Shown in pieces: positions 1,768-27,145 of a DNA stretch of 64,000 bases. The notes under the pieces were generated by a model. That model was not told where the DNA came from. It did not search any database and saw only the letters and a list, made by a program, of their open reading frames with translations. Source of the stretch: Spirochaetales bacterium (GTDB taxonomy: Bacteria > Spirochaetota > Spirochaetia > UBA9216); the NCBI GenBank assembly GCA_016839055.1, contig JAEKNX010000013.1:1-64000 (forward strand), in the 5' to 3' direction. Numbering within the stretch: the stretch's first letter is position 1; every line of letters starts with the position of its first letter. The position numbers and the translations under genes are program-made.

Positions 1768-2163
1768 CTATACCGTGTAATCAGTATAATCCTTAAGAGC
1801 CCTATTGTCCGCAAAGCCGTATTTCCTGATAACTTCATCAATATCCTTTCTGCTATCCTCTGGTATATCCGTTATAAGCCCTCCCTGACAGAAGTATTTC
1901 GGGTTTTGGTCAGGTTTGGTCCATAATAATTCAATATGCAGATCGGCGAATTCTCTGTTAAAACTTTCAGATTCAGGCAGCTTCAGTTTTATATGTATTC
2001 CCATGTCCGTTCTAAGCCTGGTCTCGGAGATTATCATTATCCCGTTTTCAGACATGTCTCCGAGCCATCCAATCTCAGTCCCTTTTTCGGCATCGAGGAC
2101 ATTAAGATACATTATTATATGCCTTCTAATTGGAACATCACGCGAATCCGAATGTTTTGACAT
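1768..2163 (-). CDS. PilZ-domain protein, predicted c-di-GMP receptor
   Basis: The start is taken at 2163, where AGGAGG precedes the ATG by four bases; the longer frame to 2196 lacks a site and would run into the upstream gene. The 131-residue product is essentially one PilZ domain. The arginine segment RDVPIRRH near the N-terminus and the strand motif DMSENG (D/NxSxxG) about 30 residues later are the two loops that contact cyclic di-GMP in this family. It is the last gene of the chemosensory run at 1768-15465, 29 bp after the hydrogenase-type receptor. This position suggests that its output is tied to that pathway, possibly in surface motility or exopolysaccharide, but the effector is unknown. 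Confidence 0.8.
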   Translation of the reverse strand: MSKHSDSRDVPIRRHIIMYLNVLDAEKGTEIGWLGDMSENGIMIISETRLRTDMGIHIKLKLPESESFNREFADLHIELLWTKPDQNPKYFCQGGLITDIPEDSRKDIDEVIRKYGFADNRALKDYTDYTV

Positions 2164-2192
2164 GTTTCCTCCTATACTCCCTATACTACTTT

Positions 2193-4184
2193 TCAACTGT
2201 TGAAATGGTCTATATCGGCTGTCAGCTGCTGCAGGTCATGCAGAGTTGATTCAAAATTATTAATCTGACTTCCTATCATGCCGTTTATATGCTCATATGA
2301 TGTTTCAGACTGCAGCAGAAGTTTCTGAAAAACCTCCTGCATGAGTGAGGATAATTCCCATCCTTCTTTTATTTTTTCCGACTCTTCCTGTCCCGCGTAT
2401 ACAAGATTACTTGACGATTGCTGAATTTCCTTAATCCGTTTTCTGATTTCCTGGGTAGAAAGAACTGTATTATCTGCCAGCCGTCTTATTTCGGAGGCTA
2501 CAATCTCAAAATTCTTGCCCTTCTCTCCGGCTGATGAAGCTTCAAGCTCGGCATTGAAGGCGATAATTTTAGTCTGCGCGGCAATACCATTAATAATACC
2601 GACAATCTCCCAGATTCCCTCTATCTGATCTCCAAGATTCTGGATACCCCCGATAGTGTCGTTGCTGGTTTCCTGTATTTCCGTCATCTTAAGTATCGTG
2701 TCCTCTATATATGAGACGCCGTTATTGACAATATCCTTATTCTCCTTCGACAGATCGAATATTTTCGCTATTCCGCTTTTGCTCTCTTCCCCGTTTTTTT
2801 CATCTCCCGATAAGACCATAACGAAATTCATTATATTAGTAATTGATTCTTTGAGTCGCCTTGTAAGCAGAGACGACATCTCTTTTCTGTTCAGACGCTC
2901 ATAATGAAAACAATTTTCAACCTTATTAAGATTATTAAAGATTGCAATTGCCATGCCTCTACAGCTGCCGTATCCGCAGGCTCCGCAGTTGAGGTGATCC
3001 TTTTCGATATATTTATGAAGCTCTTTATAGACAACCGTTAGTTCCGCGTCATCCGGATAGATGATATTATTCTGGCTGCTGCGGTCGATATATGATCTGT
3101 CGTATAAATTCTTTTTCCAGTATTTATTAACTGTCCGTCTGACCCTCGCCGCAGCCCCGGCTTTGGTTCGAATGCCTTTATAACGTGCCTGCATCTGAAG
3201 ATTTCTCTGTTCAACAGCATATTCAATATCATCCGGCGATTTTCCGATATTCATTGTGCCAGGTCCGCCGTTGCATCCTAGCTCACAATTAAGGCAGTCA
3301 ATTACGGCCGGCACCTTTCCGCCTTCTATCGAATCCGTCAGATGATCCAGATAATTATAGATTATATCCGGTCCTTCGATTTTCCTAGTTCCTCTGCTCA
3401 CCTTCGGAGCTTCCCGCTCAAGTGTCCTCATAAGCCCTCCGGGAGTGGAGAAAAGAACGGCGCGTTCTGCTGCTGAATTCATGAAATCTACGTCGTTATA
3501 GATTGAGAGGTCCAGATTATTATCGGTTAAATATGAAGAAATAGACTTGTATGTGATATTAAAATCACCAAATCCTGTTTCATCAAATTCTCGTTTTTTG
3601 GCATAGCATGGAGAAATCACCGCGACCTTGTATGAAGAATATTTTTTATAATATTCCTTAATCATTTTTATTGTATGAAGCATAGGGCTGTCAGCCGGAG
3701 CAAGAAAAGGAAGCAGTTCCGGTTTATAGGTTTCTATATATGTCACAATAGCCGGGCAGGGCTGGGATATCACTGTTTTAGGTTTGTTTTTCTTTACATG
3801 CTCAAGATAGCTTTTGATGGTAAGTTCCGCTCCGAAACTTACATCGAAAAAGGCGGAGACTCCGAGGGTTTTCAGCCATCCATTGAGCTTCAGGTATTCA
3901 CCCGGGAAATTCGAGGCTGCAGCCGGCGCTGTTATTGCTATTATCCTGTCGCCGTTATTGCAGGCATCCAGGAATATGGAAAAATCATCCAGACCATATC
4001 TCGCTTCATGTGTGCAGGCTGTAATACAGCTTCCACAGCCGATGCAGAGCTGTTCATTTATAGTAACATGGTCACCGCTACCGTCATTACAGAATTTAAC
4101 CGGACAGGCACCTATACAGGCATGGCAGTTTACACATTTATCTTTATCAACCTCTACTATCTTTCGTAAACCTTTATCATTCAT
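2193..4184 (-). CDS. [FeFe]-hydrogenase-like sensor fused to a methyl-accepting chemotaxis signalling domain
   Basis: This 663-residue soluble protein has no membrane segment. Residues 8-60 form a two-cluster ferredoxin domain (CxxCxxCxxxC at 17-27 and 47-57). Residues about 75-330 form a hydrogenase large-subunit domain with the H-cluster cysteines present: C143 (QPCP), C193 (SPCYAKK), C300 and C304 (NCELGCNGG). In catalytic enzymes L1 is TSCCP and L2 starts MPC. Here the proton-transfer Cys is Pro and the Met is Ser, as expected of sensory rather than catalytic forms. A further FeS domain (C400, C403, C408, C425; CGACGYGSC) precedes a coiled-coil MCP signalling region (about 450-663) with the tip QTKIIAFNAELEA. 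The likely role is cytoplasmic H2 or redox sensing that controls the CheA encoded two genes upstream. The hydrogenase fold is certain; the ligand is inferred. Confidence 0.88.
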   Translation of the reverse strand: MNDKGLRKIVEVDKDKCVNCHACIGACPVKFCNDGSGDHVTINEQLCIGCGSCITACTHEARYGLDDFSIFLDACNNGDRIIAITAPAAASNFPGEYLKLNGWLKTLGVSAFFDVSFGAELTIKSYLEHVKKNKPKTVISQPCPAIVTYIETYKPELLPFLAPADSPMLHTIKMIKEYYKKYSSYKVAVISPCYAKKREFDETGFGDFNITYKSISSYLTDNNLDLSIYNDVDFMNSAAERAVLFSTPGGLMRTLEREAPKVSRGTRKIEGPDIIYNYLDHLTDSIEGGKVPAVIDCLNCELGCNGGPGTMNIGKSPDDIEYAVEQRNLQMQARYKGIRTKAGAAARVRRTVNKYWKKNLYDRSYIDRSSQNNIIYPDDAELTVVYKELHKYIEKDHLNCGACGYGSCRGMAIAIFNNLNKVENCFHYERLNRKEMSSLLTRRLKESITNIMNFVMVLSGDEKNGEESKSGIAKIFDLSKENKDIVNNGVSYIEDTILKMTEIQETSNDTIGGIQNLGDQIEGIWEIVGIINGIAAQTKIIAFNAELEASSAGEKGKNFEIVASEIRRLADNTVLSTQEIRKRIKEIQQSSSNLVYAGQEESEKIKEGWELSSLMQEVFQKLLLQSETSYEHINGMIGSQINNFESTLHDLQQLTADIDHFNS

Positions 4185-4195
4185 ATTATCACCTT

Positions 4196-6043
4196 TTATT
4201 TAAAATCAAGCGTCAGCGAACCATCCCAGTTTTCGGGCGGGGTTTTTAAAAACTCTTCACATCTGCCTATAAATGTCTCAACAACAGTATCTTCGGGTAT
4301 GAGTTTGTGCAGCCCGGTAAAGTACTCAAGAGCTGACGTGAAATTGCCAAGACGGTACATCTTATACGCCTTCTTGTACTCTTTTAAATATTCAGGCTCA
4401 ATAAGCCTTGAATCGAATTCAACAGCAAACAGACTCGTCGCGATATCCTTGCCTTTCACTTTTACAAAATCTATCTCCCGGAGCGGGAATCCGTCTTTCA
4501 GCTTATCTTTCATTTCTTCTGAAACAAGAATTTCTCTTTTATAGTGTTTTGTCAGACTCTCGAGCCTGGCCGCTAGATTAACCGTATCACCAATAGCCGT
4601 ATAATCAAATTTTGTCGAGGATCCTATATTTCCGACGATAGCATCCCCTTCGTGAAGACCTATTCCAATCCGGAATCCTGGTTCCGGAATGTTCATTCCA
4701 TCTGTGGTAATAGTCGGCAGAGCCTCTATCATTTCTATCGATGCTTTCGCGGCTCTAACGGCATTGTCTTCATAGCTTATTGGAGCTCCGAAAATTGCAA
4801 AAATGGCATCGCCGATGAATTTATCAATATTGCCGCCGTACTTTTTAATGATTGCTACCTGAGTGTCAAAATAACGGTTAAGAAAACTTACTACCTGTTC
4901 CGGAGTATTGGTCTCAGAAATTGTGGTAAATGCGCGGATATCGGAAAATAGCACAACTATATTGCGTTTTTCGCCGACCATAAGATCCTTATCCGATTCC
5001 TTTTCAACCAGGTCGTTTATAATTTCTTCAGGAACGAATTTCGAAAATACATGCCGAATTTTATCTTTCATCTCCAGAACTTCTTTGTAGAGAAGCGAAT
5101 TCTCTACAACCATTCCGGCCCCGTCGGCGAAGATTCGGATATTACCGGTAATATAATCTGAATAATAATTATTCGAAAAATTACCGAGATGCAGAGTACC
5201 TACAACCTTTCCGCCCTTGCCCATCAGATTAAAACAGGAATAGGAGCTGATTTTTTTATTGTCGATTCTTTCTTTCTCGAAATCATCTCTTGTATCAATA
5301 CTGAAGATTGTCTTTTCTACATCCTCAAGATTAAGCCCCTGAAAGCTTTCATAGAAATCATTGAGGCAAATTTGCTGAAAATCTTCAAGATCTGATCTGA
5401 ATACATTTTCATTAACTCGTGCATATGAATATGGCCTCTTTTTATATTCGAGCATCAATATGCAGATATGGCTTTCACATACTTTATTAAGCAGAAATAT
5501 TATCTCTCTAATCGTGTCCTGTAGCGACCGCATAGATGAATGACTTATTTCTCCGAGAAGGTTATTGATTGTGGAATTAAAAAGCTGAACATCAAGTGTC
5601 AGGCCTATCATCTCGAATATTCTGTCTCTTGTAAGCGTGGAGGCCTCCTCCTTAATCGCATCGACGCTGTATTGTGGGTGGTCTAAAAGCGTCCTGACTT
5701 TTTCAAGCAGCAGATCCAGGTTATCAAAGTCCTTTGTAACAAAATCATCTGCCCCGCAGGATATTGCCCAATACTTATCGCGATCATCTGAAAGACTGGT
5801 ATGCATCAGAATTGGAATATCCTTAACCCATCTTCTTGATTTCAGCAGACGGCTCGCCTGATATCCCTGCATAATGGGCATTTCCACATCCATGATAATC
5901 AAGTCGGGGATCATATTATAAGCCTTCTCGATCCCTTCAACCCCGTTGCAGGCCCTCTCTATCTCATATCCGTTTTCTTCCAGAAACTGCGTTAGTACGC
6001 CCGAGACAAGGTCAGAATCATCAACTATTAATATTCTATTCAT
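4196..6043 (-). CDS. Response regulator fused to class III adenylate cyclase (REC-GAF-like-CYC)
   Basis: The 615-residue protein starts with a receiver domain (residues 1-120; acidic DD at 8-9, phospho-acceptor D52 in IIMDVEMP). A central region of about 160-320 looks GAF-like. A helix with FSKFVPEEII, typical just before cyclase domains, follows. The cyclase domain (about 355-545) keeps both metal aspartates (FSDIRAFT and FIGDAIFAIFG), the purine lysine (NIDKF) and YTAIGDTVN. There Thr stands where mammalian-type enzymes have Asp, the class IIIb pattern linked to bicarbonate-responsive cyclases. A C-terminal tail resembles TPR helices. It lies between cheA and the hydrogenase receptor with gaps near 12 bp. 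It is therefore the obvious output of this Che pathway: phosphoryl transfer to D52 would change cAMP synthesis. That link is inferred. Confidence 0.88.
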   Translation of the reverse strand: MNRILIVDDSDLVSGVLTQFLEENGYEIERACNGVEGIEKAYNMIPDLIIMDVEMPIMQGYQASRLLKSRRWVKDIPILMHTSLSDDRDKYWAISCGADDFVTKDFDNLDLLLEKVRTLLDHPQYSVDAIKEEASTLTRDRIFEMIGLTLDVQLFNSTINNLLGEISHSSMRSLQDTIREIIFLLNKVCESHICILMLEYKKRPYSYARVNENVFRSDLEDFQQICLNDFYESFQGLNLEDVEKTIFSIDTRDDFEKERIDNKKISSYSCFNLMGKGGKVVGTLHLGNFSNNYYSDYITGNIRIFADGAGMVVENSLLYKEVLEMKDKIRHVFSKFVPEEIINDLVEKESDKDLMVGEKRNIVVLFSDIRAFTTISETNTPEQVVSFLNRYFDTQVAIIKKYGGNIDKFIGDAIFAIFGAPISYEDNAVRAAKASIEMIEALPTITTDGMNIPEPGFRIGIGLHEGDAIVGNIGSSTKFDYTAIGDTVNLAARLESLTKHYKREILVSEEMKDKLKDGFPLREIDFVKVKGKDIATSLFAVEFDSRLIEPEYLKEYKKAYKMYRLGNFTSALEYFTGLHKLIPEDTVVETFIGRCEEFLKTPPENWDGSLTLDFK

Positions 6044-6055
6044 TACCAGCCCCGC

Positions 6056-8257
6056 CTAGCCTATCAGCTTCTTAACTTCATCCATAAGATTTCCTCTTTC
6101 AAAATCAGACTTCACGATGAAAGAGCTGGCGCCCAATTTAATAAAACGCTCTTTCACTTCCGCCGTATCAAGCGATGAAACTACGATAATCGGTGTCTGA
6201 CTGTATTTTTCATTTTTACGCAGATTCTCAACAAAGGTATAACCGTCCATTCTGGGCATTTGAATGTCGGTAATAATAAGATGGTAATACTGCGCTTTTG
6301 TCTTTTCGAGTGCTTCAATTCCATCCACAGCGGTGTCCACGCTGTAATTTTCCGCCTGCAGTATCGATTTCTCGATCTCCCTTGTTGAAAGCGAATCATC
6401 AACAACAAGAACTTTTTTATAGTCTCTGTTGCCTGAGGAAAACCTCTTCCTGGAATCAATGCTCCTTATCCGCTTAAACCGCGTGATTACTTCCGGAACA
6501 AATAATATATTTACGATATTAAAGCTCTCATCAAAAACAATGCCCTGGATTATTTTCAGCTTATTCAGGCTTGACGGAAGGGGTTTATAGACAAGAGACG
6601 CATATTGTATGACTGATTCGACTATTATGCCTATCATTTCTCCAAGCGATTCAACCACAATTACAAAGTATTTCTGTAGGCCTTCGGTTTCATCCCTGTC
6701 CAGGATATCCGAAAGATGATAGATGGGTATTATTTTATCCCGGAGCTTGATAGCCTTTTTATTGAGCAAATCAAGCTTGTCTTCCTCTTTAATAATAAGC
6801 AGCTCTTTAACGAAATTAGTCGGAATAAGGAATTTCTCGCCGCCTGCTGTTAAGAAAAATCCTTCAACAGTAGCCAGAGACAGCGGAAGCGCCAGAATAA
6901 ATTCGCTCCCCACTTCGACATCGGAATTGAGGGTAACCTTTCCTTTAATCTGTTCGACATTGTATCTTACAATGTCGAGGCCTACGCCCCTGCCGGAAAG
7001 ATCAGTTATCTTTTCCTTTGTCGAGAAACCGGATTGAAAGAGAAAGGTATTGAGTGATGCCTTCCCCATATTAGTTATCTCATCTTCCTTCTGAGGATTC
7101 ATTTCTATTGCTTTTTCCCTGAGCCGGTTATAATCGATTCCCCGTCCGTCATCCTTGATTGAAATAATTATGTTTCCGCTCTCGGAAGTGCATTTTATTC
7201 TAATACTGCCGGTTCTGGGCTTTCCGGCTTTTTCCCTCGTGTCAGGATCCTCAAGCCCGTGATCAATGGCATTTCTGACAATGTGGATGATGGGATCATT
7301 TAATTTTTCAAGTATCACCTTGTCAATAAGAATATCAGTCCCGACCATACTGAGCTCAATTTCCTTATTGATCTGCAGCGCTGTTTCCTCAATCATTTTG
7401 CCCAGCGATCCGAGAATCAATTCAAGCGGCAGCATCCGGAGGCTCAGGATCTCCTCCTGGACTTCGAAAGTTCCCCGTTCCAGCAAGGGAAGCTCTTCAC
7501 TGAAGTTCTTCCTTATCTGCTGAATCAGTTTAAGACAGTCTGAATATTTCTTGTTGTATTCGGCAGACGCGCTGCCGGATGTGCTCATATTGTATTCGGC
7601 AAGTTCACGGAAGTTCTGTTCAAGCTCACTTAGAACATCATTTTCTTTTTTAAACTGAAACTGCCTTATTATCAGATTATTTAATGATTTTACGATTTTA
7701 TCAACCTGACTGATCTTAACCCGGATACTCTCCTGCTCCGGAAGCTCATTTTTCTCGGCAGCAGCTTTTCCTGCTCCCTCAGCTTTTCCTTCCCCAGGCA
7801 AGGCCGGAGCTTTGGAACCGGGAAGGGCGGCATCCTTCTGAAGCTGTACGGCATCAAGCGAAAAAGGTTCATTGGCATAGGCTTTTTCATAGATATTCAG
7901 CAGTTTTTCTATCTCAAGGGCTTCGTCTGATTTATCGTTTTTTATCATTTTAGCGCCAGCGTCGAGATAATCGGTAGTAGTAAAGACTAGCTGAATAATG
8001 AGTTTTGATATTCCGTACCGTTGCTCCTTAATCCCCTTAAAAACATTCTCAAGTCCATGCGCGATCTTTTCGATTTCTCTGAATTTAAGCATTCGCGAGG
8101 AACCTTTTATTGTATGCAGTGCCCGGAGGACAGAGTTCAGCTCTTCTACATTCTCAGGATCCTTTTTCAGTCTAAGAATTCCAGAATTAATCTTTTCGAT
8201 ATTATCCTTAAATTCCTCAATAAAATTATCAATAAACGCGTTTCTATCTAAAGCCAT
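6056..8257 (-). CDS. cheA: CheA histidine kinase with C-terminal receiver domain
   Basis: This 733-residue hybrid CheA begins with an Hpt domain, with phospho-acceptor H48 in ALHTIKGSSRM. A Pro/Ala/Lys-rich linker near residues 120-175 follows. There is no obvious separate CheY-binding P2 domain. The dimerisation region and HATPase domain contain RNAIDHGLEDP (N box), DDGRGID and GRGVGLDIV (G boxes). A CheW-like P5 domain follows, then a receiver domain with D664 in IITDIQMP. A fused receiver is common in CheAs of alternative-function or twitching pathways, where it can act as a phosphate sink. It sits between cheR and the cyclase response regulator, whose REC domain is the likely main phosphoryl acceptor since no separate CheY gene is present. 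Confidence 0.95.
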   Translation of the reverse strand: MALDRNAFIDNFIEEFKDNIEKINSGILRLKKDPENVEELNSVLRALHTIKGSSRMLKFREIEKIAHGLENVFKGIKEQRYGISKLIIQLVFTTTDYLDAGAKMIKNDKSDEALEIEKLLNIYEKAYANEPFSLDAVQLQKDAALPGSKAPALPGEGKAEGAGKAAAEKNELPEQESIRVKISQVDKIVKSLNNLIIRQFQFKKENDVLSELEQNFRELAEYNMSTSGSASAEYNKKYSDCLKLIQQIRKNFSEELPLLERGTFEVQEEILSLRMLPLELILGSLGKMIEETALQINKEIELSMVGTDILIDKVILEKLNDPIIHIVRNAIDHGLEDPDTREKAGKPRTGSIRIKCTSESGNIIISIKDDGRGIDYNRLREKAIEMNPQKEDEITNMGKASLNTFLFQSGFSTKEKITDLSGRGVGLDIVRYNVEQIKGKVTLNSDVEVGSEFILALPLSLATVEGFFLTAGGEKFLIPTNFVKELLIIKEEDKLDLLNKKAIKLRDKIIPIYHLSDILDRDETEGLQKYFVIVVESLGEMIGIIVESVIQYASLVYKPLPSSLNKLKIIQGIVFDESFNIVNILFVPEVITRFKRIRSIDSRKRFSSGNRDYKKVLVVDDSLSTREIEKSILQAENYSVDTAVDGIEALEKTKAQYYHLIITDIQMPRMDGYTFVENLRKNEKYSQTPIIVVSSLDTAEVKERFIKLGASSFIVKSDFERGNLMDEVKKLIG

Positions 8258-8266
8258 AGATTAACC

Positions 8267-9670
8267 TCATATTTTCTTCAGCCATTGTTCACAAATTCTC
8301 AAAAAATATTTCCCATTAAAACCTTCAAGGAAAATCTGATATTTATAACTGTCTTTCCTGATATATTCCTTAATTGCCGTGATACATTTCTTCAATACTT
8401 CTTTTGCTTCCGCGGACTTTCGTTCCATCAGGATTGAAGAAAGATAAAAACCCGCAGGCCAGAGTGTACTATCCATCATAAGCGATTTATTAAAATACTC
8501 AGAGGCCTGATCCTTTTTATTTTTAATAAAAAAGGTATATCCCTTCAGAAATAAAGTCAGAGCGTTCAAGCCCGTCATCATTTCAAATTCATCAATTTCA
8601 AGGACAGCCCGATCTATCTCATTATTATTAATCATGTAGATTATCCTGATAAGCTTTACCGCCGAGTCATAATTAGGATTCCGGACAAGGTTGAATATAC
8701 GGTTATTTAGTTTGGCTGCCGCGTATTCCAGGATCAGATCCAAATCTATTTCCTCAGTGATGGTTTCTAAATTATTACAGGCTTCCGTAACACCCTCTTC
8801 CTGGAGTTTTAGAAGAATTGATGGTATTATTTTATTCTGTTCCAATTTTTCGGCAATACTTTTTTTCTGAAAATAGAAGGAGCCATTTGTTTCAATAAGG
8901 TTCAGATCCATATGAGAAATTAGCGGCATTTCAGTAGCCGAAAGAAACAGGAATCCGCCTGGTTTTAGTTTCTCTACTACTGAATCAATTATTATTTTAC
9001 GTTTTTCCAGGGCGAAATATATTATTGTATTTCTAAGAAAAATTACATCAAAGAGTTCACCGAAAACGCCCCCGTTAAAATCAGAAAGGTTCAGGTTTAG
9101 TTTATTTATTTCTTTAATTAATTCCGGCTTTATCCTGAATGATTTATCTTTGACAACCGAGTTTTTCTTAACAAGAGCATGGTATTTCAATCCATCTTCT
9201 CTGAAGGAATTGCTCCGGTAGACACCGCGTTCAAAATGCGCGAGGACTTCCACGTTAACATCGGAACCGGAAACCTTAAAACTGCAGTTGTCCCCGAAAA
9301 AATTTTCCGCGGTTAAATACAGTGATATTGCCTCTTCTCCGGTCGAACAAGCGGCACTCCAGATATTTACAGACTTCTGCTTGTCTGCTAAGGCCGGAAA
9401 AACAATATCATTAAGAAGCGTAAAATGTTTCTCTTCCCTGAAAAAATAGGTTTCATTGATCGTCACTGTATCAACAAATTTGTTATATTCAGATTTATCA
9501 GAATCAATCATTTTAAGATAGCCGCTGAAGTCAAGAGATTTTTCGTTCAATTTCGCTGACAGATAATTCCGGACAATATTGTAATTTGTTAAAGGCAGTT
9601 CCATTCCAATTCTTGATGATATATAATCAAGAGAAAGTTTAAAATCCAGGTCGTTCAGGTTACTGTTCAT
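8267..9670 (-). CDS. cheR: CheR chemoreceptor methyltransferase with C-terminal TPR-like extension
   Basis: The 467-residue protein has an N-terminal CheR helical domain (residues 10-75) followed by a SAM-dependent methyltransferase domain. Marks of CheR are TVTINETYFFREE, the SAM loop WSAACSTGEEAIS and IFLRNTIIYF. After about residue 280 comes a 190-residue helical region with TPR-like pairs (KGYTFFIKNKKDQASEYF in part), as in CheR fusions of non-flagellar chemosensory systems. It should methylate glutamates on the three receptors encoded in the same cluster, using S-adenosylmethionine. It overlaps cheB by 4 bp and precedes cheA by 9 bp, which indicates one transcript and translational coupling. 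Confidence 0.93.
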   Translation of the reverse strand: MNSNLNDLDFKLSLDYISSRIGMELPLTNYNIVRNYLSAKLNEKSLDFSGYLKMIDSDKSEYNKFVDTVTINETYFFREEKHFTLLNDIVFPALADKQKSVNIWSAACSTGEEAISLYLTAENFFGDNCSFKVSGSDVNVEVLAHFERGVYRSNSFREDGLKYHALVKKNSVVKDKSFRIKPELIKEINKLNLNLSDFNGGVFGELFDVIFLRNTIIYFALEKRKIIIDSVVEKLKPGGFLFLSATEMPLISHMDLNLIETNGSFYFQKKSIAEKLEQNKIIPSILLKLQEEGVTEACNNLETITEEIDLDLILEYAAAKLNNRIFNLVRNPNYDSAVKLIRIIYMINNNEIDRAVLEIDEFEMMTGLNALTLFLKGYTFFIKNKKDQASEYFNKSLMMDSTLWPAGFYLSSILMERKSAEAKEVLKKCITAIKEYIRKDSYKYQIFLEGFNGKYFLRICEQWLKKI

Positions 9671-10686
9671 CTGTTCTTAAGAATCCTTAAAATAGATCCG
9701 GCCATTTCATCAAGCGGAACGACAAAGGATGCAGCCCCCATCATGGCAGCCTCTTTCGGCATACCGTAGATTACCGAAGAAGCCTCATCCTGCACCAGAG
9801 TTGTTCCGCCTGCCTTCACTATGCTCAGACAGCCCATCGCGCCGTCGCTTCCCATACCGGTAAGCAGAACCCCAAGCAGTTTCGAACCGAATACTGAGGA
9901 GGCTGAATTAAAAAGAACATCGACAGCCGGTTTCTGATTCAGAACCTTAGCCCCGTCATCAGGGTAGACTCCCGATCTGTCTACAACTATGTGCCGGTCG
10001 GTAGGAGCCAGAAATACTTTCCCGCCTGTGCATTTCATTCTGGCATTTACAAGAACTACATCAAGATCGGTTGCACCATTTAGCCAGTCGCGGTAACCTT
10101 CCGCGAATCCTGATTCAAGATGCTGAACAAGCGCAATTGGAATTGGAAGATCCCCCGGCAGACCTGACAGGATTGTCCGAACGGCCTTCGGGCCGCCCGT
10201 AGAGGCCCCGATTACTATCATTTCAGGGATATTTGTCTTCTCTATTTCTTCCGGACGCAAAACATCAGTCCTAAGACGGCTGCTTTTTTCCTTTAAAGCG
10301 GATTTGCTTCCAAGCAGACGGATTTTAGTGAAAAAGTTTTTTAAAAAAACTGGATCATTATACTGGCTGATATCTGGTTTAGCCATGACATCCATAGCTC
10401 CTGCCTGACAGGCCCTGAAGCTGGTATCAGCATCTATCATCGAAGAAAGAATGAGAATCGGGCAGGGATTTTCAGCCATTATTATTCTTGTTGATTCAAT
10501 ACCGTCCATTACAGGCATGTTTATATCCAGAATAACCAAGTCCGGTTTTAAAGCCCTGACGGCCTCTACCCCTGATTTACCGTTTGAAGCCTCGCCGGCT
10601 ATTACAATATCGTCTGTATCAGAAAATACCTGCTTGAGAATGCTTCGTATCAATGCTGAGTCGTCAACAATCAGTATTTTTATCAT
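9667..10686 (-). CDS. cheB: CheB receptor methylesterase/deamidase
   Basis: The protein has standard length (339 residues) and layout: a receiver domain (residues 1-120, D54 in VILDINMP), a linker, and a methylesterase domain. The catalytic residues align as S162 (GASTGGPK), H189 (VQHLESGF) and D281 (TGMGSDGA), as in enterobacterial CheB. It removes methyl groups added by CheR and is activated by CheA-dependent phosphorylation of the receiver, giving adaptation. It overlaps its neighbours on both sides by 4 bp (cheR downstream, the CheW-like gene upstream). Confidence 0.95.
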   Translation of the reverse strand: MIKILIVDDSALIRSILKQVFSDTDDIVIAGEASNGKSGVEAVRALKPDLVILDINMPVMDGIESTRIIMAENPCPILILSSMIDADTSFRACQAGAMDVMAKPDISQYNDPVFLKNFFTKIRLLGSKSALKEKSSRLRTDVLRPEEIEKTNIPEMIVIGASTGGPKAVRTILSGLPGDLPIPIALVQHLESGFAEGYRDWLNGATDLDVVLVNARMKCTGGKVFLAPTDRHIVVDRSGVYPDDGAKVLNQKPAVDVLFNSASSVFGSKLLGVLLTGMGSDGAMGCLSIVKAGGTTLVQDEASSVIYGMPKEAAMMGAASFVVPLDEMAGSILRILKNR

Positions 10687-11189
10687 TCTATAATCCTGTC
10701 CTTAAAAAGCGAATTAAACATAAACTGCTCAATATCTATAAGAAACTGAGGGTATCCGTTCTCTTTGAACCTCATTCCGAGTATGCCTCTTCGGAGCTGA
10801 AACTCCTGCATTGCCCCGGGAAGCATCTTTATCTCGGAAAGCGGTATGGAATTTATTTCTGCCTGGCTTCCTATTTTAAGAGAAAGATATTTAGCAGAGA
10901 CATCTGAGTCTTCCGGGAAATCATCTAAAATGACTTCGAATCTTTTCTTGTTCATTTTCGTATAGACGGTAATGTCGCAAATAAGAGCGAGCCTTAAATC
11001 GTCCGTACTTTCAAAGCTGAATTGCTCGTTAAGGCATTCATCCATATTAAAAGTAAAAAGTTTTTCACCGTTATATTCAGTAAATTCAGTATTCTCTTCA
11101 AGATAAATACTGGAAAAAAACTGATCCCGGTTTACAAGAAATCCGATTTTCTCATAAGAGAGCTCGAGAAAATCATGTTCAATCGGCAT
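10683..11189 (-). CDS. Divergent CheW-like coupling protein
   Basis: The start is set at the ATG at 11189 (MPIEHD), preceded by GAGAGG at normal distance; a TTG 15 bases earlier would also be in frame. The 168-residue product resembles a CheW fold in strand order and in the C-terminal stretch RRGILGMRF...FLIDIEQFMF, but it lacks the clear VRG-type motifs of true CheW. It lies between cheW and cheB and overlaps both. It may be a second adaptor that links particular receptors to CheA. The family assignment rests on context and weak pattern similarity. Confidence 0.6.
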   Translation of the reverse strand: MPIEHDFLELSYEKIGFLVNRDQFFSSIYLEENTEFTEYNGEKLFTFNMDECLNEQFSFESTDDLRLALICDITVYTKMNKKRFEVILDDFPEDSDVSAKYLSLKIGSQAEINSIPLSEIKMLPGAMQEFQLRRGILGMRFKENGYPQFLIDIEQFMFNSLFKDRIIE

Positions 11190-11688
11190 TAAGATCCCTC
11201 TCAAGCCTTTTAAGGATTGCTTCTGTGTTCAGAATAAAGATCTCTTCACCCTCTTCAGAGGTAATCGAACTTACAAAAAAGTCTTCGTTCTCATCCCTTA
11301 GTGTAACCTTATGAATATGTGATTCAGGGGTCTTCTGAATTTCCAGAACGTCATTGATCATAAACGCAACCTGATCGTCCTCAATATTCATTATGAAGAA
11401 AGTTGAAGATTCGAGTTTCTTCTGTTCAAACAGCATGTTAAGATCAAAAACTGTATACGGCTCTCCATGACGGTTGATAAAACCTCTTATATACGACGGA
11501 ACAAAGGGAACGTAAAAAAGCGGTACATCAAGAACTATTTCTCTGATCTTATCGGCATACAGCGCATAAACCTTCTTGTTGATTCGAAAGACAATAAGCT
11601 TTCTTATTGTTTCATTTACATCGGTTTTATTTAGTTTTTCACTTTTTCCTGCTTCGGAAATCCCTTTCAGAAGTTCATTTGTATCCAT
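11179..11688 (-). CDS. cheW: CheW coupling protein
   Basis: This 169-residue protein has the expected CheW core after a 30-residue N-terminal extension. KLIVFRINKKVYALYADKIREIV is the opening strand pair (quoted in part: LIVFRI, YALYA). Then come the FYVPFVPSYIRGFINRHG segment (VPxYIRGxxNxRG type) and DLNMLF. CheW links receptors to the CheA P5 domain at the membrane array. Its stop overlaps the start of the next gene, and its start codon shares one base with the stop of the upstream receptor. Confidence 0.92.
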   Translation of the reverse strand: MDTNELLKGISEAGKSEKLNKTDVNETIRKLIVFRINKKVYALYADKIREIVLDVPLFYVPFVPSYIRGFINRHGEPYTVFDLNMLFEQKKLESSTFFIMNIEDDQVAFMINDVLEIQKTPESHIHKVTLRDENEDFFVSSITSEEGEEIFILNTEAILKRLERDLNAD

Positions 11689-13712
11689 TAGCGATTACCC
11701 TTTACTTTATATTCAATTACAGTCTCGTTAAGAGCATCTGCCTGTGATTTAAGATTATGAGACGCGGTTGTAGTTGCTTTTGTAGATATAACGAAATTAT
11801 CTATGCCCTCGGAAATCTGTTTCAAGGTTAGAAGAATTTGCTCAAATGCAGAGACCTGCTGCTTTATTGATATTGAAATATGTTCGGCCGATGTGGCTGA
11901 TATTTCTGATGAACTGAGGACATCCTCAAATAGTTTTTTCAGGGCATTAGAAAGTTCCCAGCCCTTGCTGATCTTGGTTGTCCCCTCCTCGCTGGAGATT
12001 ATAAGCCTGTCGGACGAATGCTGAATTTCATTTATCTTTGTTTTTATCTCATTAGTAGACGATACGGTACTGTCCGCGAGCCGCCTGATTTCTGTTGCTA
12101 CTATCTGAAAGTTCTTCCCTGCATCACCCGCGGCTGAAGCTTCAAGCTCCGCGTTAAAGGCGATTATTTTTGTTTGATCGGCAATTCCATTAATAATATT
12201 GACGATTTCCCAGATACTTTCTATCTTTTCTCCAAGCATTTTGATTCCGGAAATTGTACCTGTATTCGCCTGACGTATCTCATCCATCTTCGACAGGGTT
12301 TCCTTAATGATAGTAAATCCGTCGTTGACTACCTTTTTCGTATTATTCGAGACTGCCGTAACCTCTTCAATCTTGACCGCTATACTCTTTGAGAGGTTGT
12401 CGGAATCTTCCATTGTGCTGACAATTTCCTTAACAGCGGCAGCCTGTTCATTGGAGGTGCTGGAGATCTCCTGACTAGAAACAGACAGCTCCTGAACTGA
12501 ATCAAGCAGAACATGGGTTGTATTTCTCACCGTTATCAGCATATTGGAAAACTTCTCAATAACCGTGTTGAACTGATCGGCCATCTGTCCTATTTCATCT
12601 TCACTCTCAACCTCCAGTCGGAGCGAGAGATCTCCCTCCGAGACGAGTCCGCTTATTTCCTTAGCTCTGGAAACCGGCGCGAGAATTCTGGAGAAAATCA
12701 GATTCACTATTATATTTATTATTATGATACTTCCCGCGGCAAGAATTATCATCATCAGGAATATCTTCCTCAGAAATACAGTTGTTTCATCAAGCGGAAT
12801 CTGTGAAATTACAATCCAGTTCAGATCGGCAATGTTTTTATAAACGGCGAGTTCCTGAACCCCGTCTCCAGTTTCAGCAAGGGTTAAATCTGCAAATACT
12901 TTTGTATGATATGTATCGGGATTGTTGACTGCCTCTGTAATTATCTCGTCAACTGTTTTCCCTCCCGCCTCATCGATTTGTTCATAGATGTTTTTTCCCG
13001 TCATTCCGGGATGGAAAATCAAATTGCCTTCCGTGTCTATAACCCAGGTGTATCCATTCTTTCCTATATTAATACCCGAAAGGCTTGAGCCTATTTTCTC
13101 GACATTAATCAATGAAGTAAATTCGTTTTTATATGATGAAGCCCATATTATCAGATCCCATGGTTCAAAATACGCCATACCGCCTGCCTTTATCCTGGGA
13201 ACTTCCTCTCCGACATTCGCCCATTCATATTCAATAAATCCGTTTTTAAGGGCGGTTGCCTTCTTCATGAAGTCATACTTGCTTGCGTCAACACCCTGAG
13301 ATTTTGGATGTATTGCCAGAATACCGTTTGAATCTACCCCGGCAAGATATCCTGTCTCGCCAACCCTTCCAAAAACCGGATCAAGAATGAATCTGCTGAA
13401 GGTATTGTAAGCTTCTTCTTCTGAAATTCTGCCGGACTTGAACTGCTGGTATTCATATTCAGCAACCTTTTTTACGTCTTCGGCGAGTAAAACAAGATGA
13501 TTCTCCACCGACATATCGGTATAATCAGCTACTAATGAAGATGCGACACTTGTTATAGAACTTAGCTCGCGGACAGCTTTCTGCATGAGATCCGGCTTGA
13601 TAGTAAGATACATTACCGCCGCGAAAAGACATAATGCAATAATAAAAAATACTGCAAATACAAGCTGTATTTTACCTTTTAGTCCTTTAAAAAAATTGAA
13701 AACCCTCTTCAT
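11688..13712 (-). CDS. Methyl-accepting chemotaxis protein with periplasmic double Cache domain
   Basis: The 674-residue receptor has membrane segments at about 15-37 and 317-340. Between them lies a periplasmic sensor with two Cache-type repeats, recognisable by GYLAGVDSNGILAIHP and GYTWVIDTEGNLIFHP. A HAMP domain follows at 341-394 (ILAPVSRAKEIS...). The signalling coiled coil carries the tip QTKIIAFNAELEASAAGD. This tip is close to that of the hydrogenase receptor and the multi-pass receptor, and differs from the canonical QTNLLALNAAIEAARAGE. Cache receptors bind small organic molecules such as carboxylates and amino acids; the ligand here is unknown. No C-terminal CheR-docking pentapeptide is visible. 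Confidence 0.92.
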   Translation of the reverse strand: MKRVFNFFKGLKGKIQLVFAVFFIIALCLFAAVMYLTIKPDLMQKAVRELSSITSVASSLVADYTDMSVENHLVLLAEDVKKVAEYEYQQFKSGRISEEEAYNTFSRFILDPVFGRVGETGYLAGVDSNGILAIHPKSQGVDASKYDFMKKATALKNGFIEYEWANVGEEVPRIKAGGMAYFEPWDLIIWASSYKNEFTSLINVEKIGSSLSGINIGKNGYTWVIDTEGNLIFHPGMTGKNIYEQIDEAGGKTVDEIITEAVNNPDTYHTKVFADLTLAETGDGVQELAVYKNIADLNWIVISQIPLDETTVFLRKIFLMMIILAAGSIIIINIIVNLIFSRILAPVSRAKEISGLVSEGDLSLRLEVESEDEIGQMADQFNTVIEKFSNMLITVRNTTHVLLDSVQELSVSSQEISSTSNEQAAAVKEIVSTMEDSDNLSKSIAVKIEEVTAVSNNTKKVVNDGFTIIKETLSKMDEIRQANTGTISGIKMLGEKIESIWEIVNIINGIADQTKIIAFNAELEASAAGDAGKNFQIVATEIRRLADSTVSSTNEIKTKINEIQHSSDRLIISSEEGTTKISKGWELSNALKKLFEDVLSSSEISATSAEHISISIKQQVSAFEQILLTLKQISEGIDNFVISTKATTTASHNLKSQADALNETVIEYKVKGNR

Positions 13713-13740: not shown

Positions 13741-15465
13741 TCATTTTATTGAAAATGTATTAATTAATTGTTCAAGCTCCGAAATAAGTTTCATCATATC
13801 GTGCGTATTTTCCGCAATATGGTTTGTTGAAGCGGCAAATTGCCCGATTCCTGAGGATATCTGCTTTAGTGTCAACAATATCTGCTGAAAAGCGGAAACC
13901 TGCTGTTCGGTTTTTAAAGAAATACTGCCTGAAAAATCATTTGTTGAACTCGCCATCTCGCGCAGTCGTTCCATAAGCTGTCTTAACTTTTCAGTGGTCT
14001 CAATGCCTTCGGTTATCCTGGCGGTTCCTGTCCTTGATGTTCTGCTGAGTGATTCAGAATAAGACTGGATATCGGAGATGGAATCTTTTATTCTGGCAGT
14101 CGATGCTACGGTATTATCGGCAAGACGCCTTATTTCAGTAGCAACTATCTGAAAATTGCGGCCGGCGTCGCCTGCCGCCGTGGCTTCCAGCTCTGCATTG
14201 AAGGCTATTATTTTAGTCTGATTTGCAATATTGTTAATGATATTCACGATTTCCCATATGCTTGCTATACTGTCGTTCAGCGTTTCAATGACCACCACCG
14301 TTTCCTTGTCGGCATTCGTAATCATCTCCATCTGTTGTCTGTTCTCCTCGATCAGTTTTACTCCCTGGTCCACGCTCGTTTCTATCTCGCTGGAACGTTC
14401 GTCAATTTCTCTGACATTGGATGCAACCTCTTTTGAAAGCCTGGAGGATTCTTCCATTGTCGTAACAATTTCATTAACGGCTGCAGCCTGTTCATTTGAG
14501 GTAGTCGAAAATTCCTCAGACATGGAAGAAAGGTTCAGTGATGCGGTGGAAATAGTAGAATTGTTTTTCTGAACCTTCTCTATCATTATTCCGAGATTTT
14601 TAAAGGATACATTAAGCAAATAAATAATATACTCCATTTCATCTTTAATCGTCGTCTTGGTCTGCACTTTCAAATTACCTGAATTACTTGCAATAACATT
14701 GAGGTTTAGTGAAATTCTAAAAAGTATGTTTTTATATGATCTTATTACAAGGAGACCAAGACTAATATTGGTTGATAGATTTATTAGAATTACAATAATT
14801 ATCTTAAGACGTAAGATGAAAATGGAAATTCCCGAATGAAAAGATGATTCAATAGCCAGATATACAGTGAGTGTAGTAAAAATGACAGGAATAATGATGA
14901 AGTATAAGTTATTACGGAAGAAACTGATTCCGAAATGTTTTCTGCCGGATAAATCTTCAACAGTAAAGCTTATTTCAGAAGATAGATTTTCCAGCATAGG
15001 CCTGACAAGTCTGAAAGCAATGGTATATGCAAGAAGCCCGGCTATATAACTGCCGTACATTGCCAGGATCACGGCCAACACGGCCTGAAATGTATCAATT
15101 CCAATTACAAACACCATATAAAACCCTGCCGCCACGGAACCGGCGGCCACCCTGGCAAAAATAGCCACGGCGTGTACAATCGGCAATTTGTGCAGGGCGG
15201 TGAACAGTTGTATCTTCTCTTCCCTTCCCGGATTCTCTTTTCTAAGAAGTCTCATGACCCTTCGGCTGATTATAAAATTTATCGGCATTCCAACAAACAT
15301 GACAACCATAATGCCTAATACGGCTAACATTATTAGGACTGAAGTGATTTTATCGGACGGAATATCCGTTAATATTATCGCATAGGCCGCGGCTATAGGA
15401 AGCCCTACTCCAATACCTGCAATTTCGGTACCTAAGAATTTTTTAAAGAAGTTACTCGGTTTCAT
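13741..15465 (-). CDS. Methyl-accepting chemotaxis protein with multi-pass membrane sensor
   Basis: The 574-residue receptor begins with about 255 residues holding six predicted membrane segments, for example IAGIGVGLPIAAAYAIIL and LFIIIPVIFTTLTVYLAI-like stretches, with almost no periplasmic domain. A HAMP-like or linker section follows, then a signalling coiled coil with EIVTTMEESS and the tip QTKIIAFNAELEATAAGD. Such membrane-embedded inputs suggest sensing of a membrane-soluble signal or of membrane state. It is the first gene of the chemosensory run: AGGAG stands five bases before the ATG and a 320-bp intergenic region lies upstream. Confidence 0.88.
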   Translation of the reverse strand: MKPSNFFKKFLGTEIAGIGVGLPIAAAYAIILTDIPSDKITSVLIMLAVLGIMVVMFVGMPINFIISRRVMRLLRKENPGREEKIQLFTALHKLPIVHAVAIFARVAAGSVAAGFYMVFVIGIDTFQAVLAVILAMYGSYIAGLLAYTIAFRLVRPMLENLSSEISFTVEDLSGRKHFGISFFRNNLYFIIIPVIFTTLTVYLAIESSFHSGISIFILRLKIIIVILINLSTNISLGLLVIRSYKNILFRISLNLNVIASNSGNLKVQTKTTIKDEMEYIIYLLNVSFKNLGIMIEKVQKNNSTISTASLNLSSMSEEFSTTSNEQAAAVNEIVTTMEESSRLSKEVASNVREIDERSSEIETSVDQGVKLIEENRQQMEMITNADKETVVVIETLNDSIASIWEIVNIINNIANQTKIIAFNAELEATAAGDAGRNFQIVATEIRRLADNTVASTARIKDSISDIQSYSESLSRTSRTGTARITEGIETTEKLRQLMERLREMASSTNDFSGSISLKTEQQVSAFQQILLTLKQISSGIGQFAASTNHIAENTHDMMKLISELEQLINTFSIK

Positions 15466-24319: not shown

Positions 24320-27145
24320 ATGAAATTATTACCCTCGGTTCTACTCGTAACAATTATTACGAGTATGCTGTTTTTCACCTCTTGTGATCCCAATGCACTT
24401 TCTGAGGCAGAATCAATTGCCATTGATAAAGCGCTTCTTGAAATAGTTTACTCTGGCAGTGATACAGCTACTAGTGTTAATGCAAATGTTACCCTAGCCT
24501 CAACCGGAAGTTCTGGTACAGTTATTACCTGGGAAAGTAATTGTGTCAATGTAATAACTGCTGCAGGTGTCGTTACAAGACCAGCTTTTGCTGATGGGAA
24601 CTGTCCGGTTGTTTTGACGGCAACACTTACTAAGGATGATGCCACCGATACAAAAACATTTAATCTTATAGTTATCTGTTTGGCTGCAACAGATGCTGAA
24701 GCTGTTTCGGCAGACAAAGCAGCCCTCAATACAAATAATATAATATTTGCCGCAGGAGACACCGCTACATCAATTACCGGCGATTTTACTCTACCCTCAA
24801 TTGGTTCTAACGGAACCACAATTACCTGGGAAAGTAATCTTGTAAATGTGATAACTGCTGCAGGTGTCGTTACAAGACCAGCTTTTGCTGATGGGAACTG
24901 TCCGGTTGTTTTGACGGCAACACTTACTAAGGATGATGCCACCGATACAAAAACATTTAATCTTATAGTTATCTGTTTGGCTGCAACAGATGCTGAAGCT
25001 GTTTCGGCAGACAAAGCAGCCCTCAATACAAATAATATAATATTTGCCGCAGGAGACACCGCTACATCAATTACCGGCGATTTTACTCTACCCTCAATTG
25101 GTTCTAACGGAACCACAATTACCTGGGAAAGTAATCTTGTAAATGTGATAACTGCTGCAGGTGTCGTTACAAGACCAGCTTTTGCTGATGGGAACTGTCC
25201 GGTTGTTTTGACGGCAACACTTACTAAGGATGATGCCACCGATACAAAAACATTTAATCTTATAGTTATCTGTTTGGCTGCAACAGATGCTGAAGCTGTT
25301 TCGGCAGACAAAGCAGCCCTCAATACAAATAATATAATATTTGCCGCAGGAGACACCGCTACATCAATTACCGGCGATTTTACTCTACCCTCAATTGGTT
25401 CTAACGGAACCACAATTACCTGGGAAAGTAATCTTGTAAATGTGATAACTGCTGCAGGTGTCGTTACAAGACCAGCTTTTGCTGATGGGAACTGTCCGGT
25501 TGTTTTGACGGCAACACTTACTAAGGATGATGCCACCGATACAAAAACATTTAATCTTATAGTTATCTGTTTGGCTGCAACAGATGCTGAAGCTGTTTCG
25601 GCAGACAAAGCAGCCCTCAATACAAATAATATAATATTTGCCGCAGGAGACACCGCTACATCAATTACCGGCGATTTTACTCTACCCTCAATTGGTTCTA
25701 ACGGAACCACAATTACCTGGGAAAGTAATCTTGTAAATGTGATAACTGCTGCAGGTGTCGTTACAAGACCGTCATTCAGTGACGGTGACTGTCCGGTTGT
25801 TTTAACGGCAACACTAACCAAAGAAGAAGCCACCGATACAAAAACATTTGCTCTTACGGTTATCTGTTTGGATGCAACAGATACTGATTTAGCTTCGGCA
25901 AATCTTGATACAAATGATATAATATTTACCACAGGTGATACGGCGACCTCAGTTACAGCTGATTTCACTCTACCCTTAACTGGTACTAACGAAACCACAA
26001 TTTCCTGGGCTGAAGGAACTGATACCGCTAATGCTGTCAGCATTTCAGGAAACGATGTAACCGTATCACGTCCTAGAGGTAATGGCAGCAATGACGCATC
26101 AGTGACCATAAGAGCTACTATTTCAAAGAGTGGTATTACAGATACAACAAAAGATTTAACAATTATTATTTCGGACATAATTTCAATAGCGAATTCTCCA
26201 AATGGGAACAGGCTTGCTGTAGCCTCCGATGGTACCCGCTACTATCTTGAAGGCAAATCTCTTGAGATAACTGCTGTTCACAAAAGTTCAGACGGACGCG
26301 AATGGACAACGCTTTCGTCAACAGGTTTACCCACAGGCCCCGAGACTGCCTACTATGGTTCATCAATAGCCGTTGATTCTAAGAAAACCGTTTATGTCCT
26401 TTCTAATATAGGTAACCCCTGCCGAACAAATGTCTATAAGCTGTCAGATGGAGGTACTTCATGGTCTCTTGTAGGTAATGAAGATTTTGCAACTGAATCA
26501 AACGAGAGTACAGGCAGGATCGTAATTGATTCTAATGACAAGCCGATTGCAATGGCTAATGTCTCCAGTGCCCTGCACGTTTTTGAACTTGTAGAGAATG
26601 TATGGACTGATATTTCTCCAGAGACTACATCGTATAAAGCTGATATCTATACCGATGGCAGTGATATCTATTATGTACATGGTGCAGGGAGTAGTTATTA
26701 TAGCGTGTATAAACGAAACTCCGAGAGCTGGTCTAAAATTACAGATACATCAAATATAACAGGCGAGTATAATTTTAAGTATCCCTCAATATCTGTAGAT
26801 AGCGGTATTGTAACTGTAGCAGTAGTTGAAAGCGGAAGTGTAAAAGTTGTTAGATGGGAATTGGGTTCGTGGACAGTGCTTTCATCAGGAATGCCTAAGA
26901 TAGATGTTTCTCAGAATACCTGTGGATATATTCAAGCCTTAACTATAGCTTCGGTATCATATCTTGCAGCTCATGATGGGACTCTTATTAAATACAGCTC
27001 CGGTTCATGGTCTAAATTGAGTGATTTCACAAGTTGCAGTAGTGCTGGAATAAACACTGATTACGATCCGACTACCGGGAAGATAGTTGTTCTAAACGGC
27101 TATCCGTCAAGCGGCAGCTGGTTTATGCTTGATGTAACTCCATAA
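24320..27145 (+). CDS. Lipoprotein with six Ig-like (aBig-type) domains and a propeller-like C-terminus
   Basis: This 941-residue protein has a lipobox (FFTSC) after a hydrophobic N-terminus. Residues about 33-630 hold six tandem domains of about 99 residues with the atypical bacterial Ig-like pattern ITWES...VITAAGVVTRP...CPVVLTATLTK...TKTFNL. Domains 2-4 are identical in protein and the second to fifth are nearly so in DNA. The sixth is divergent (ISWAEGTD). The last 300 residues contain repeated SSDGREW, YKLSDGGTSW and SGSWSKL strands that suggest a beta-propeller. It is probably surface-exposed and extended, with a role in adhesion or polymer binding. GGAG five bases before the ATG and a terminator at 27174 bound it as one gene. 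Confidence 0.85.
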   Translation: MKLLPSVLLVTIITSMLFFTSCDPNALSEAESIAIDKALLEIVYSGSDTATSVNANVTLASTGSSGTVITWESNCVNVITAAGVVTRPAFADGNCPVVLTATLTKDDATDTKTFNLIVICLAATDAEAVSADKAALNTNNIIFAAGDTATSITGDFTLPSIGSNGTTITWESNLVNVITAAGVVTRPAFADGNCPVVLTATLTKDDATDTKTFNLIVICLAATDAEAVSADKAALNTNNIIFAAGDTATSITGDFTLPSIGSNGTTITWESNLVNVITAAGVVTRPAFADGNCPVVLTATLTKDDATDTKTFNLIVICLAATDAEAVSADKAALNTNNIIFAAGDTATSITGDFTLPSIGSNGTTITWESNLVNVITAAGVVTRPAFADGNCPVVLTATLTKDDATDTKTFNLIVICLAATDAEAVSADKAALNTNNIIFAAGDTATSITGDFTLPSIGSNGTTITWESNLVNVITAAGVVTRPSFSDGDCPVVLTATLTKEEATDTKTFALTVICLDATDTDLASANLDTNDIIFTTGDTATSVTADFTLPLTGTNETTISWAEGTDTANAVSISGNDVTVSRPRGNGSNDASVTIRATISKSGITDTTKDLTIIISDIISIANSPNGNRLAVASDGTRYYLEGKSLEITAVHKSSDGREWTTLSSTGLPTGPETAYYGSSIAVDSKKTVYVLSNIGNPCRTNVYKLSDGGTSWSLVGNEDFATESNESTGRIVIDSNDKPIAMANVSSALHVFELVENVWTDISPETTSYKADIYTDGSDIYYVHGAGSSYYSVYKRNSESWSKITDTSNITGEYNFKYPSISVDSGIVTVAVVESGSVKVVRWELGSWTVLSSGMPKIDVSQNTCGYIQALTIASVSYLAAHDGTLIKYSSGSWSKLSDFTSCSSAGINTDYDPTTGKIVVLNGYPSSGSWFMLDVTP
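24554..25770 (+). repeat. 297-bp tandem repeat inside the lipoprotein gene
   Basis: The same sequence recurs at an exact 297-bp period (for example GGCTGCAACAGATGC at about 24682, 24979, 25276 and 25573). No differences are visible by eye over about 1.2 kb, whereas the flanking units diverge. This points to recent copy-number change by recombination. It also produces a long spurious open frame on the opposite strand. Confidence 0.9.

Follow-up and report, generated by a model that had tools for sequence, protein, structure and literature searches.

A REC-fused, class IIIb-type cyclase in a spirochaetal chemosensory operon with a hydrogenase-like receptor, and split forms of the cyclase in relatives

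Control of cAMP synthesis by a chemosensory system has a precedent in Pseudomonas aeruginosa, where the cyclase CyaB is controlled by the Chp system (PMC3019171, excerpt), and the mononucleotidyl cyclase already stands among the response-regulator domains in PMC3447774 (excerpt), a text in which the string 'spirochaet' does not occur. On the receptor side, the fusion of an [FeFe]-hydrogenase with an MCP is itself a type already known: HydDB names its group C2 'chemotactic (putative)' and calls the role of C2 hydrogenases undetermined (PMC5037454, excerpt), and sensory hydrogenases have been proposed to orient Fibrobacteres of the termite gut in H2 gradients (PMC4704652, excerpt). How such proteins signal has been described as an open question (PMC8163306, excerpt). 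The locus described here would, if the reading offered below is true, connect a sensory-type [FeFe]-hydrogenase directly to a second messenger that can be measured, with CheA activity or cAMP as the readout. Both this receptor-cyclase wiring and the split version of the enzyme in relatives are unusual; no report that couples a hydrogenase receptor to a cyclase, or that describes a bacterial chemosensory heterodimeric cyclase, was found among the titles and abstract openings of the open-licence papers searched.

The window, that is, the whole 64,000-nucleotide stretch of Spirochaetales DNA that was analysed, contains a run of ten minus-strand genes that begins with the second MCP (13741-15465) and closes with a PilZ-like gene (1768-2196); the spacing between neighbours is -26 to +28 bp. 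The genes are given here in operon order, the parts of the cyclase directly below its gene.

13741..15465, minus strand: second MCP, its N-terminal half membrane-embedded as judged by eye
11688..13712, minus strand: dCache-HAMP-MCP receptor
11179..11688, minus strand: CheW
10683..11204, minus strand: 173-aa ORF; several clusters have a weakly similar ORF in the corresponding position
9667..10686, minus strand: CheB (REC and methylesterase)
8267..9670, minus strand: CheR with a sub-threshold TPR match
6056..8257, minus strand: hybrid CheA with HPt (His48), HATPase, CheW-like and C-terminal REC domains
4196..6043, minus strand: REC / GAF-like / class III nucleotidyl cyclase, 615 aa
5708..6034, minus strand: REC domain of the cyclase, residues 4-112, intact Asp8/Asp9/Lys104, phosphoacceptor Asp52
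5054..5686, minus strand: middle domain of the cyclase, residues 120-330, GAF-like only, with a long terminal helix (296-333)
4442..4972, minus strand: Guanylate_cyc catalytic domain (PF00211)
4598..4600, minus strand: codon of Thr482, the class IIIb position
2193..4184, minus strand: [FeFe] hydrogenase-MCP fusion, putative H2 receptor
1768..2196, minus strand: PilZ-like protein, E 0.0015, below cut-off

CheA, CheW, CheB, CheR and MCPs thus lie in one cluster with a multidomain response regulator, the REC-cyclase, two of the features by which ACF systems are recognised. Some members are less sharply defined. The TPR match in CheR (PF13181) scores 22.2 bits against a cut-off of 25.7, with a TPR-model stretch also noted, and the 173-aa ORF (10683-11204) overlaps both the CheW and the CheB genes and belongs to no family that was found; the idea that it is a divergent CheW received an hhalign probability of 12.5% and is not supported. 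The PilZ-like gene begins with TTG, a start that gives a 4-bp overlap with the gene before it, and its true start could lie further in; the homologue at the same place in locus L129 is over the cut-off (E 2.3e-7). Its position at the end of the operon suggests possible cross-talk with c-di-GMP. A scan of the window gave 63 promoter-like stretches against 45.3 expected and 16 terminator-like stretches against 14.0 expected, and positions 24320-27145 encode a 941-aa protein with tandem 99-aa repeats, four near-identical units following one diverged unit.

The cyclase joins three domains. A Response_reg match covers residues 4-112 (Pfam, E 4.8e-24), and this REC domain retains Asp8, Asp9, Asp52 and Lys104; a Guanylate_cyc match (PF00211) covers residues 358-534 (Pfam, E 2.9e-26); and the only family match of the middle domain, GAF_2 (PF13185), is below the cut-off at E 0.022. 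In the predicted model (mean pLDDT 84.8, pTM 0.45, values at which the single domains are usable and the domain arrangement is not) the middle region is mixed alpha/beta, followed by a long helix, residues 296-333, that leads into the cyclase domain. Asp368, Lys408, Asp412, Thr482, Asn489 and Arg493 all stand in this one chain; following the class III literature, we take Asp368 and Asp412 to be the metal-binding positions, Lys408 and Thr482 the purine-site positions, and Asn489 and Arg493 the transition-state positions. Subclass IIIb is defined by a Lys/Thr purine pair in which Thr replaces Asp, and the sequence features of that subclass are present together: the PF00211 match, the two metal aspartates, the Asn and Arg, and the Lys/Thr pair. 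The fold of the catalytic domain matches CyaB, CyaC and others. A class IIIb type of catalytic domain is supported by these features, and an earlier note on this DNA was right to place there both metal aspartates, the purine lysine and a threonine at the class IIIb position, the last within the motif FDYTAIGDTVNLAARL.

The best structural matches among solved cyclases score about equally. P. aeruginosa CyaB (3r5g) aligns with Z 20.9 (rmsd 3.2, 188 aligned residues, 36% identity), rhodopsin guanylyl cyclase cores with Z 20.6, the guanylyl cyclase Cya2 with Z 20.5 and 37% identity, and CyaC with Z 20.2 and 33% identity, or Z 19.9 and 34% in the entry with bicarbonate (1wc5). A sequence search of the solved structures returned Cya2 constructs and photoactivated cyclases first and CyaB after them. 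Because the top sequence matches include the guanylyl cyclase Cya2, it is Lys408 and Thr482 by themselves that bear the case for ATP; the pair argues for that substrate, since Cya2 has Gly aligned at the Thr site, and on these two residues the window cyclase is probably an ATP user.

The pairing of CheA with such a cyclase extends beyond the window. A search of 392 genomes of the phylum with the middle domain alone gave matches in 50 of them, with 57 places listed, and in all 19 regions examined among those 57 places a CheA gene or fragment adjoins the cyclase; most of the 19 also carry MCP, CheW, CheB and CheR genes, and several end at contig edges. CheA lies beside the cyclase also in L064 (genome G022), L066 (G074) and L069 (G061). 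Among 80 named loci, the best 80 of 583 relatives, CheA stands next to a REC-bearing orthologue or a cyclase pair in 13 (L149-L160 and L162, from MAGs titled Treponema, Spirochaetales, Spirochaetaceae or Treponemataceae), and these 13 are all of the best 80 of 583 in which REC and cyclase share one ORF, or a cyclase pair stands, at the match; going by the length of the contigs and where their genes lie, L152 is the same contig as in G074, and L162 the same as in G022. The other 67 of these best 80 gave no CheA match. Two cyanobacterial loci, L189 and L192, match over residues 2-615 and were considered as further REC-cyclases; their REC and cyclase lie in separate ORFs, and they are not orthologues. 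At L141:8120-9697, L156:8828-10330 and L157:8783-10345, CheA ORFs of 500-525 aa adjoin the cyclase, and these match the C-terminal part only of the window CheA (from residue 464 or 465).

All 30 single-gene orthologues, the window included, keep Asp368, Lys408, Asp412, Asn489 and Arg493, and position 482 is Thr in 25 of them and Ser in 5. The REC residues Asp/Glu9-Asp52-Lys104 are intact in 17 of the 30 and fail in 13 (L064, L129, L140-L143 and L153-L159, several Treponema relatives among them), in which the catalytic sites are nonetheless intact; Asp52 is lost in nine of the 30. L140 fails by position 9 alone, the G022 protein has Asn for Asp9 and Leu for Lys104, and L129, whose catalytic region is nearest to that of the window in the tree (68%), has Lys for Asp52. 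Because one or more of these residues are lost in 13 of the 30 orthologues, phosphotransfer cannot be the mechanism family-wide, and in the REC-failing proteins CheA may act on the REC domain by contact, or not at all. For the window itself the REC control of the cyclase that the earlier note had put forward is plausible, with an intact REC domain and a CheA gene 12 bp upstream of the cyclase.

In some relatives the cyclase is divided between two genes. Two cyclase genes stand after CheA at L069:10891-14212, L135:7312-10745, L144:7259-10089 and L160:10339-13424. In all four pairs one chain, here called the first type, retains the metal Asp at position 368 and has lost Asn489/Arg493 (E/L, S/A, S/E and T/E), and the other, the second type, has His at 368 and keeps the Asn and Arg. 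One second-type chain stands at a contig end at L067:2372-3352, in G002, a genome of the window's genus. In the cyclase tree, which predates L160 and in which two first-type rows have long branches, three first-type chains share one branch (100/99, starred) and four second-type chains another (98/96, starred); an AU test of all seven split chains as one clade neither rejects that grouping (p 0.41) nor demonstrates it. The pattern fits a single duplication after which the two copies divided the work, and the four two-cyclase clusters amount to a natural experiment in turning a homodimeric class III cyclase into an animal-like C1/C2 pair.

The reading that we favour, with moderate confidence, is that CheA takes several inputs, H2 or redox state among them, and controls cAMP through the REC-cyclase. 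This would be a non-flagellar, ACF-like chemosensory system with a cAMP-making output: the dCache MCP, the second MCP and, in the host lineage, the cytoplasmic [FeFe]-hydrogenase-MCP would set CheA activity through CheW, CheA would phosphorylate the cyclase's REC domain, a homodimeric class IIIb catalytic domain would make cAMP from ATP, and the cAMP would be read by CRP-type proteins. The sequences themselves establish the domain composition, the intact active sites, the close packing of the operon, the recurrent pairing of CheA with the cyclase and the relatedness of the hydrogenase receptor's MCP domain to the other receptors of the cluster; phosphotransfer, H2 as the ligand, ATP as the substrate, the homodimer and the sign of the response are steps that we infer. 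The window's own genome gives 15 cNMP-binding matches.

The putative H2 receptor (2193-4184) is a protein of 663 aa with 2x[4Fe-4S], an [FeFe] H-domain (Fe_hyd_lg_C, E 9e-32), a C-terminal Cx2Cx4Cx16C motif and an MCP domain, and its H-cluster cysteine motifs read QPCPA, SPCYAK and DCLNCELGC. It was compared with 13 other fusions, truncated proteins and near-copies (L015, L022-L025) being left out; all 14 hydrogenase-MCPs have [AS]QPCP at L1, with Pro where Cys299 would be, and all 14 have the exact Cx2Cx4Cx16C. An absent Cys299 and a C-terminal Cx2Cx4Cx16C are what is described for sensory groups C/D (PMC8163306, excerpt). The alternative that survives best, though we consider it unlikely, is that the hydrogenase-MCP senses redox or iron-sulfur status without a functional H-cluster, CheA still controlling the cyclase. 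The loss of Cys299 in all 14 proteins points that way, and so do the maturation genes: in the window's own assembly (97% complete) HydF, HydG and HydE are not over their cut-offs, with best scores of 82.6 bits against 325.55, 37.2 against 312.15 and 164.7 against 254.6, respectively, and HydG is over the cut-off in 7 of 25 genomes searched and in none of the seven from family f1, the family of the host. These f1 genomes, one of which is rated 100% complete, do carry hydrogenase-like genes. Against a receptor of this kind, the four H-cluster cysteines are kept, by motif, in 14 of 14 proteins; TamHydS is catalytically functional although it, too, is without Cys299 (PMC8163306, excerpt); HydG and HydE are both over the cut-off in G022; and the other hydrogenases of the window's own genome would themselves need maturation, its nine Fe_hyd_lg_C matches including some with the canonical L1 motifs TSCCPAW/TSCCPAY (L118, L121). 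HydE is over the cut-off in G002, of the host's genus, and the HydE, HydF and HydG genes are either missing from assemblies or diverged.

The MCP domain of the putative H2 receptor is informative about its partners. In an MCP tree, for which the program warns of long branches meeting, the window and G022 receptors branch with 19 cluster MCPs (100/99, starred), apart from 12 other hydrogenase-MCP fusions. The receptor tip reads NAELEA in the two cluster receptors and in 12 of the 19 cluster MCPs (one further cluster MCP has NAAIEA, and the tips of six escaped the tip pattern), and it reads NAAIEA or NASIEA in the 12 other fusions. This kinship is the best evidence that the hydrogenase receptor would talk to the cluster CheA, and it strengthens what the earlier note had seen, an H2-type receptor in company with the cyclase: the [FeFe]-hydrogenase-like protein is encoded in one operon with the cyclase, and its MCP domain is of the same kind as those of the cluster's other receptors. 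That receptor and cyclase are mere neighbours, the receptor feeding a different CheA such as a flagellar one, consequently seems improbable, even though hydrogenase-MCP fusions away from cyclase clusters are common among relatives and in G277 the PilZ gene directly follows the cyclase with no receptor between. A tree of the hydrogenase domains (14 rows, no outgroup) has no starred branch and leaves the direction of domain exchange unsettled. By tblastn the hydrogenase part is present in 1 of 22 cyclase-cluster stretches of other genomes, that of G022. Of the 80 named loci (best 80 of 583) one has it, and this is the same G022 contig; there the receptor and cyclase genes are on opposite strands, some 10 kb apart, the receptor gene lying past an MCP and a PilZ-like gene. 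Because just 1 of 22 stretches has it, it is unlikely that H2 was the ancestral input, and the hydrogenase receptor is a local add-on to the cluster.

The earlier note had gone further, taking Thr482 as the mark of class IIIb cyclases, of which several respond to bicarbonate or CO2, and adding as speculation that one enzyme might read both H2 and CO2, the substrates of homoacetogenesis. Among loci L001-L063 and the window, most of them chosen by similarity to the window cyclase, 40 raw matches and the window reference reduce to 38 distinct domains of more than 120 aa, 37 with Thr and one with Ser; the own-genome loci L001-L008 (8 of 10 Pfam-family matches in that genome, L003 being the window cyclase itself) have seven Thr and one Ser. 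A search of named genomes used two patterns, one with the Thr and the other, [IV]DKFIGDA, leaving that site free. The 80 named loci, which are the best 80 of 583 relatives found with a query that itself bears Thr and are to that extent still biased, hold 84 domains with 79 Thr and 5 Ser, and the 38 domains among them that bear [IV]DKFIGDA have 34 Thr, 4 Ser and no Asp. Thr482 is ordinary among the related cyclases sampled; far from a special mark, it is the norm (37 of 38, and 34 of 38 in the set from the best 80 of 583 whose pattern leaves the site free), and as a sign of a special CO2-sensing enzyme it is uninformative against a baseline of Thr or Ser in 84 of 84 domains from the best 80 of 583.

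Bicarbonate can be considered apart from this mark. In sAC-like enzymes the Thr is thought predictive of bicarbonate regulation (a Plasmodium cyclase paper, PMC3383692, excerpt), and CyaB is reported to be activated by 5-25 mM NaHCO3 (PMC8230467, excerpt, citing Topal et al. 2012); retinal guanylate cyclase is likewise bicarbonate-stimulated (PMC6378327, excerpt), so that the Thr is probably not required for the response. By kinship with CyaB and CyaC, direct stimulation of the window cyclase by bicarbonate is possible. It is a larger step, and an improbable one, to suppose that the window cyclase also reads CO2 or bicarbonate through its class IIIb domain, one protein integrating H2 and CO2 for homoacetogenesis. 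Lys408 and Thr482 are present, CyaB, described as bicarbonate-activated, and CyaC (with a structure in the presence of bicarbonate, by the title of entry 1wc5) are among the top structural matches, and the window's own genome encodes CdhC, of the acetyl-CoA synthase family (PF03598), at 223.7 bits; the baseline just given, however, makes the Thr no mark of this enzyme, and the distribution of CdhC gives the pairing no support. CdhC is over the cut-off in 5 of 14 further genomes, exceeding 200 bits in G117, G236 and G283, and in the cluster stretches of these three the hydrogenase receptor was not found (the G283 stretch is a whole 8.5-kb contig, and a receptor could lie outside it), whereas G022 (81% complete), which has the same receptor at its cluster, gave no CdhC match. 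Across the 14 chosen genomes and the window's own, a receptor at the cluster and PF03598 show no association, a weak comparison with just two receptor-bearing genomes, and the homoacetogenesis pairing is not borne out. Least probable of all, and best regarded as a long shot, is an H2-and-CO2 coincidence detector in which a hydrogenase-MCP array would drive cAMP through a REC-cyclase also sensing inorganic carbon, in a bacterium with an acetyl-CoA synthase gene, and sister clusters would drive an obligate C1/C2 heterodimer with its second, non-catalytic site free for another ligand.

Set beside the known systems, the favoured circuit, in which CheA controls cAMP through the REC-cyclase, is like Chp-CyaB in that a CheA-type system would govern a related catalytic domain (36% identity, Z 20.9) that makes cAMP. 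It differs in having REC and cyclase in one protein, encoded inside the chemosensory operon, whereas CyaB is, as we take it, a protein apart, with an N-terminal part of its own and without a REC domain. With ACF systems of the Wsp type the cluster shares CheA, CheW, CheB, CheR and a REC-enzyme output, but the enzyme here is a class III cyclase whose middle domain is GAF-like, and the receptors include a hydrogenase. The receptor resembles HydDB group C2, of which it is a candidate member by motif description, in its H-domain linked to an MCP, its absent Cys299 and its C-terminal Cx2Cx4Cx16C; what sets the window and G022 receptors apart is an MCP domain of the cyclase cluster's own type. CyaC of Spirulina platensis and related class IIIb cyclases have the same catalytic fold at 33-34% identity, with regulatory domains that presumably differ from those of the window cyclase. 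Four related clusters divide the metal Asp and the Asn/Arg between two chains in the manner of the mammalian C1/C2 enzymes, whereas the window enzyme is unsplit, with all of these residues in one chain.
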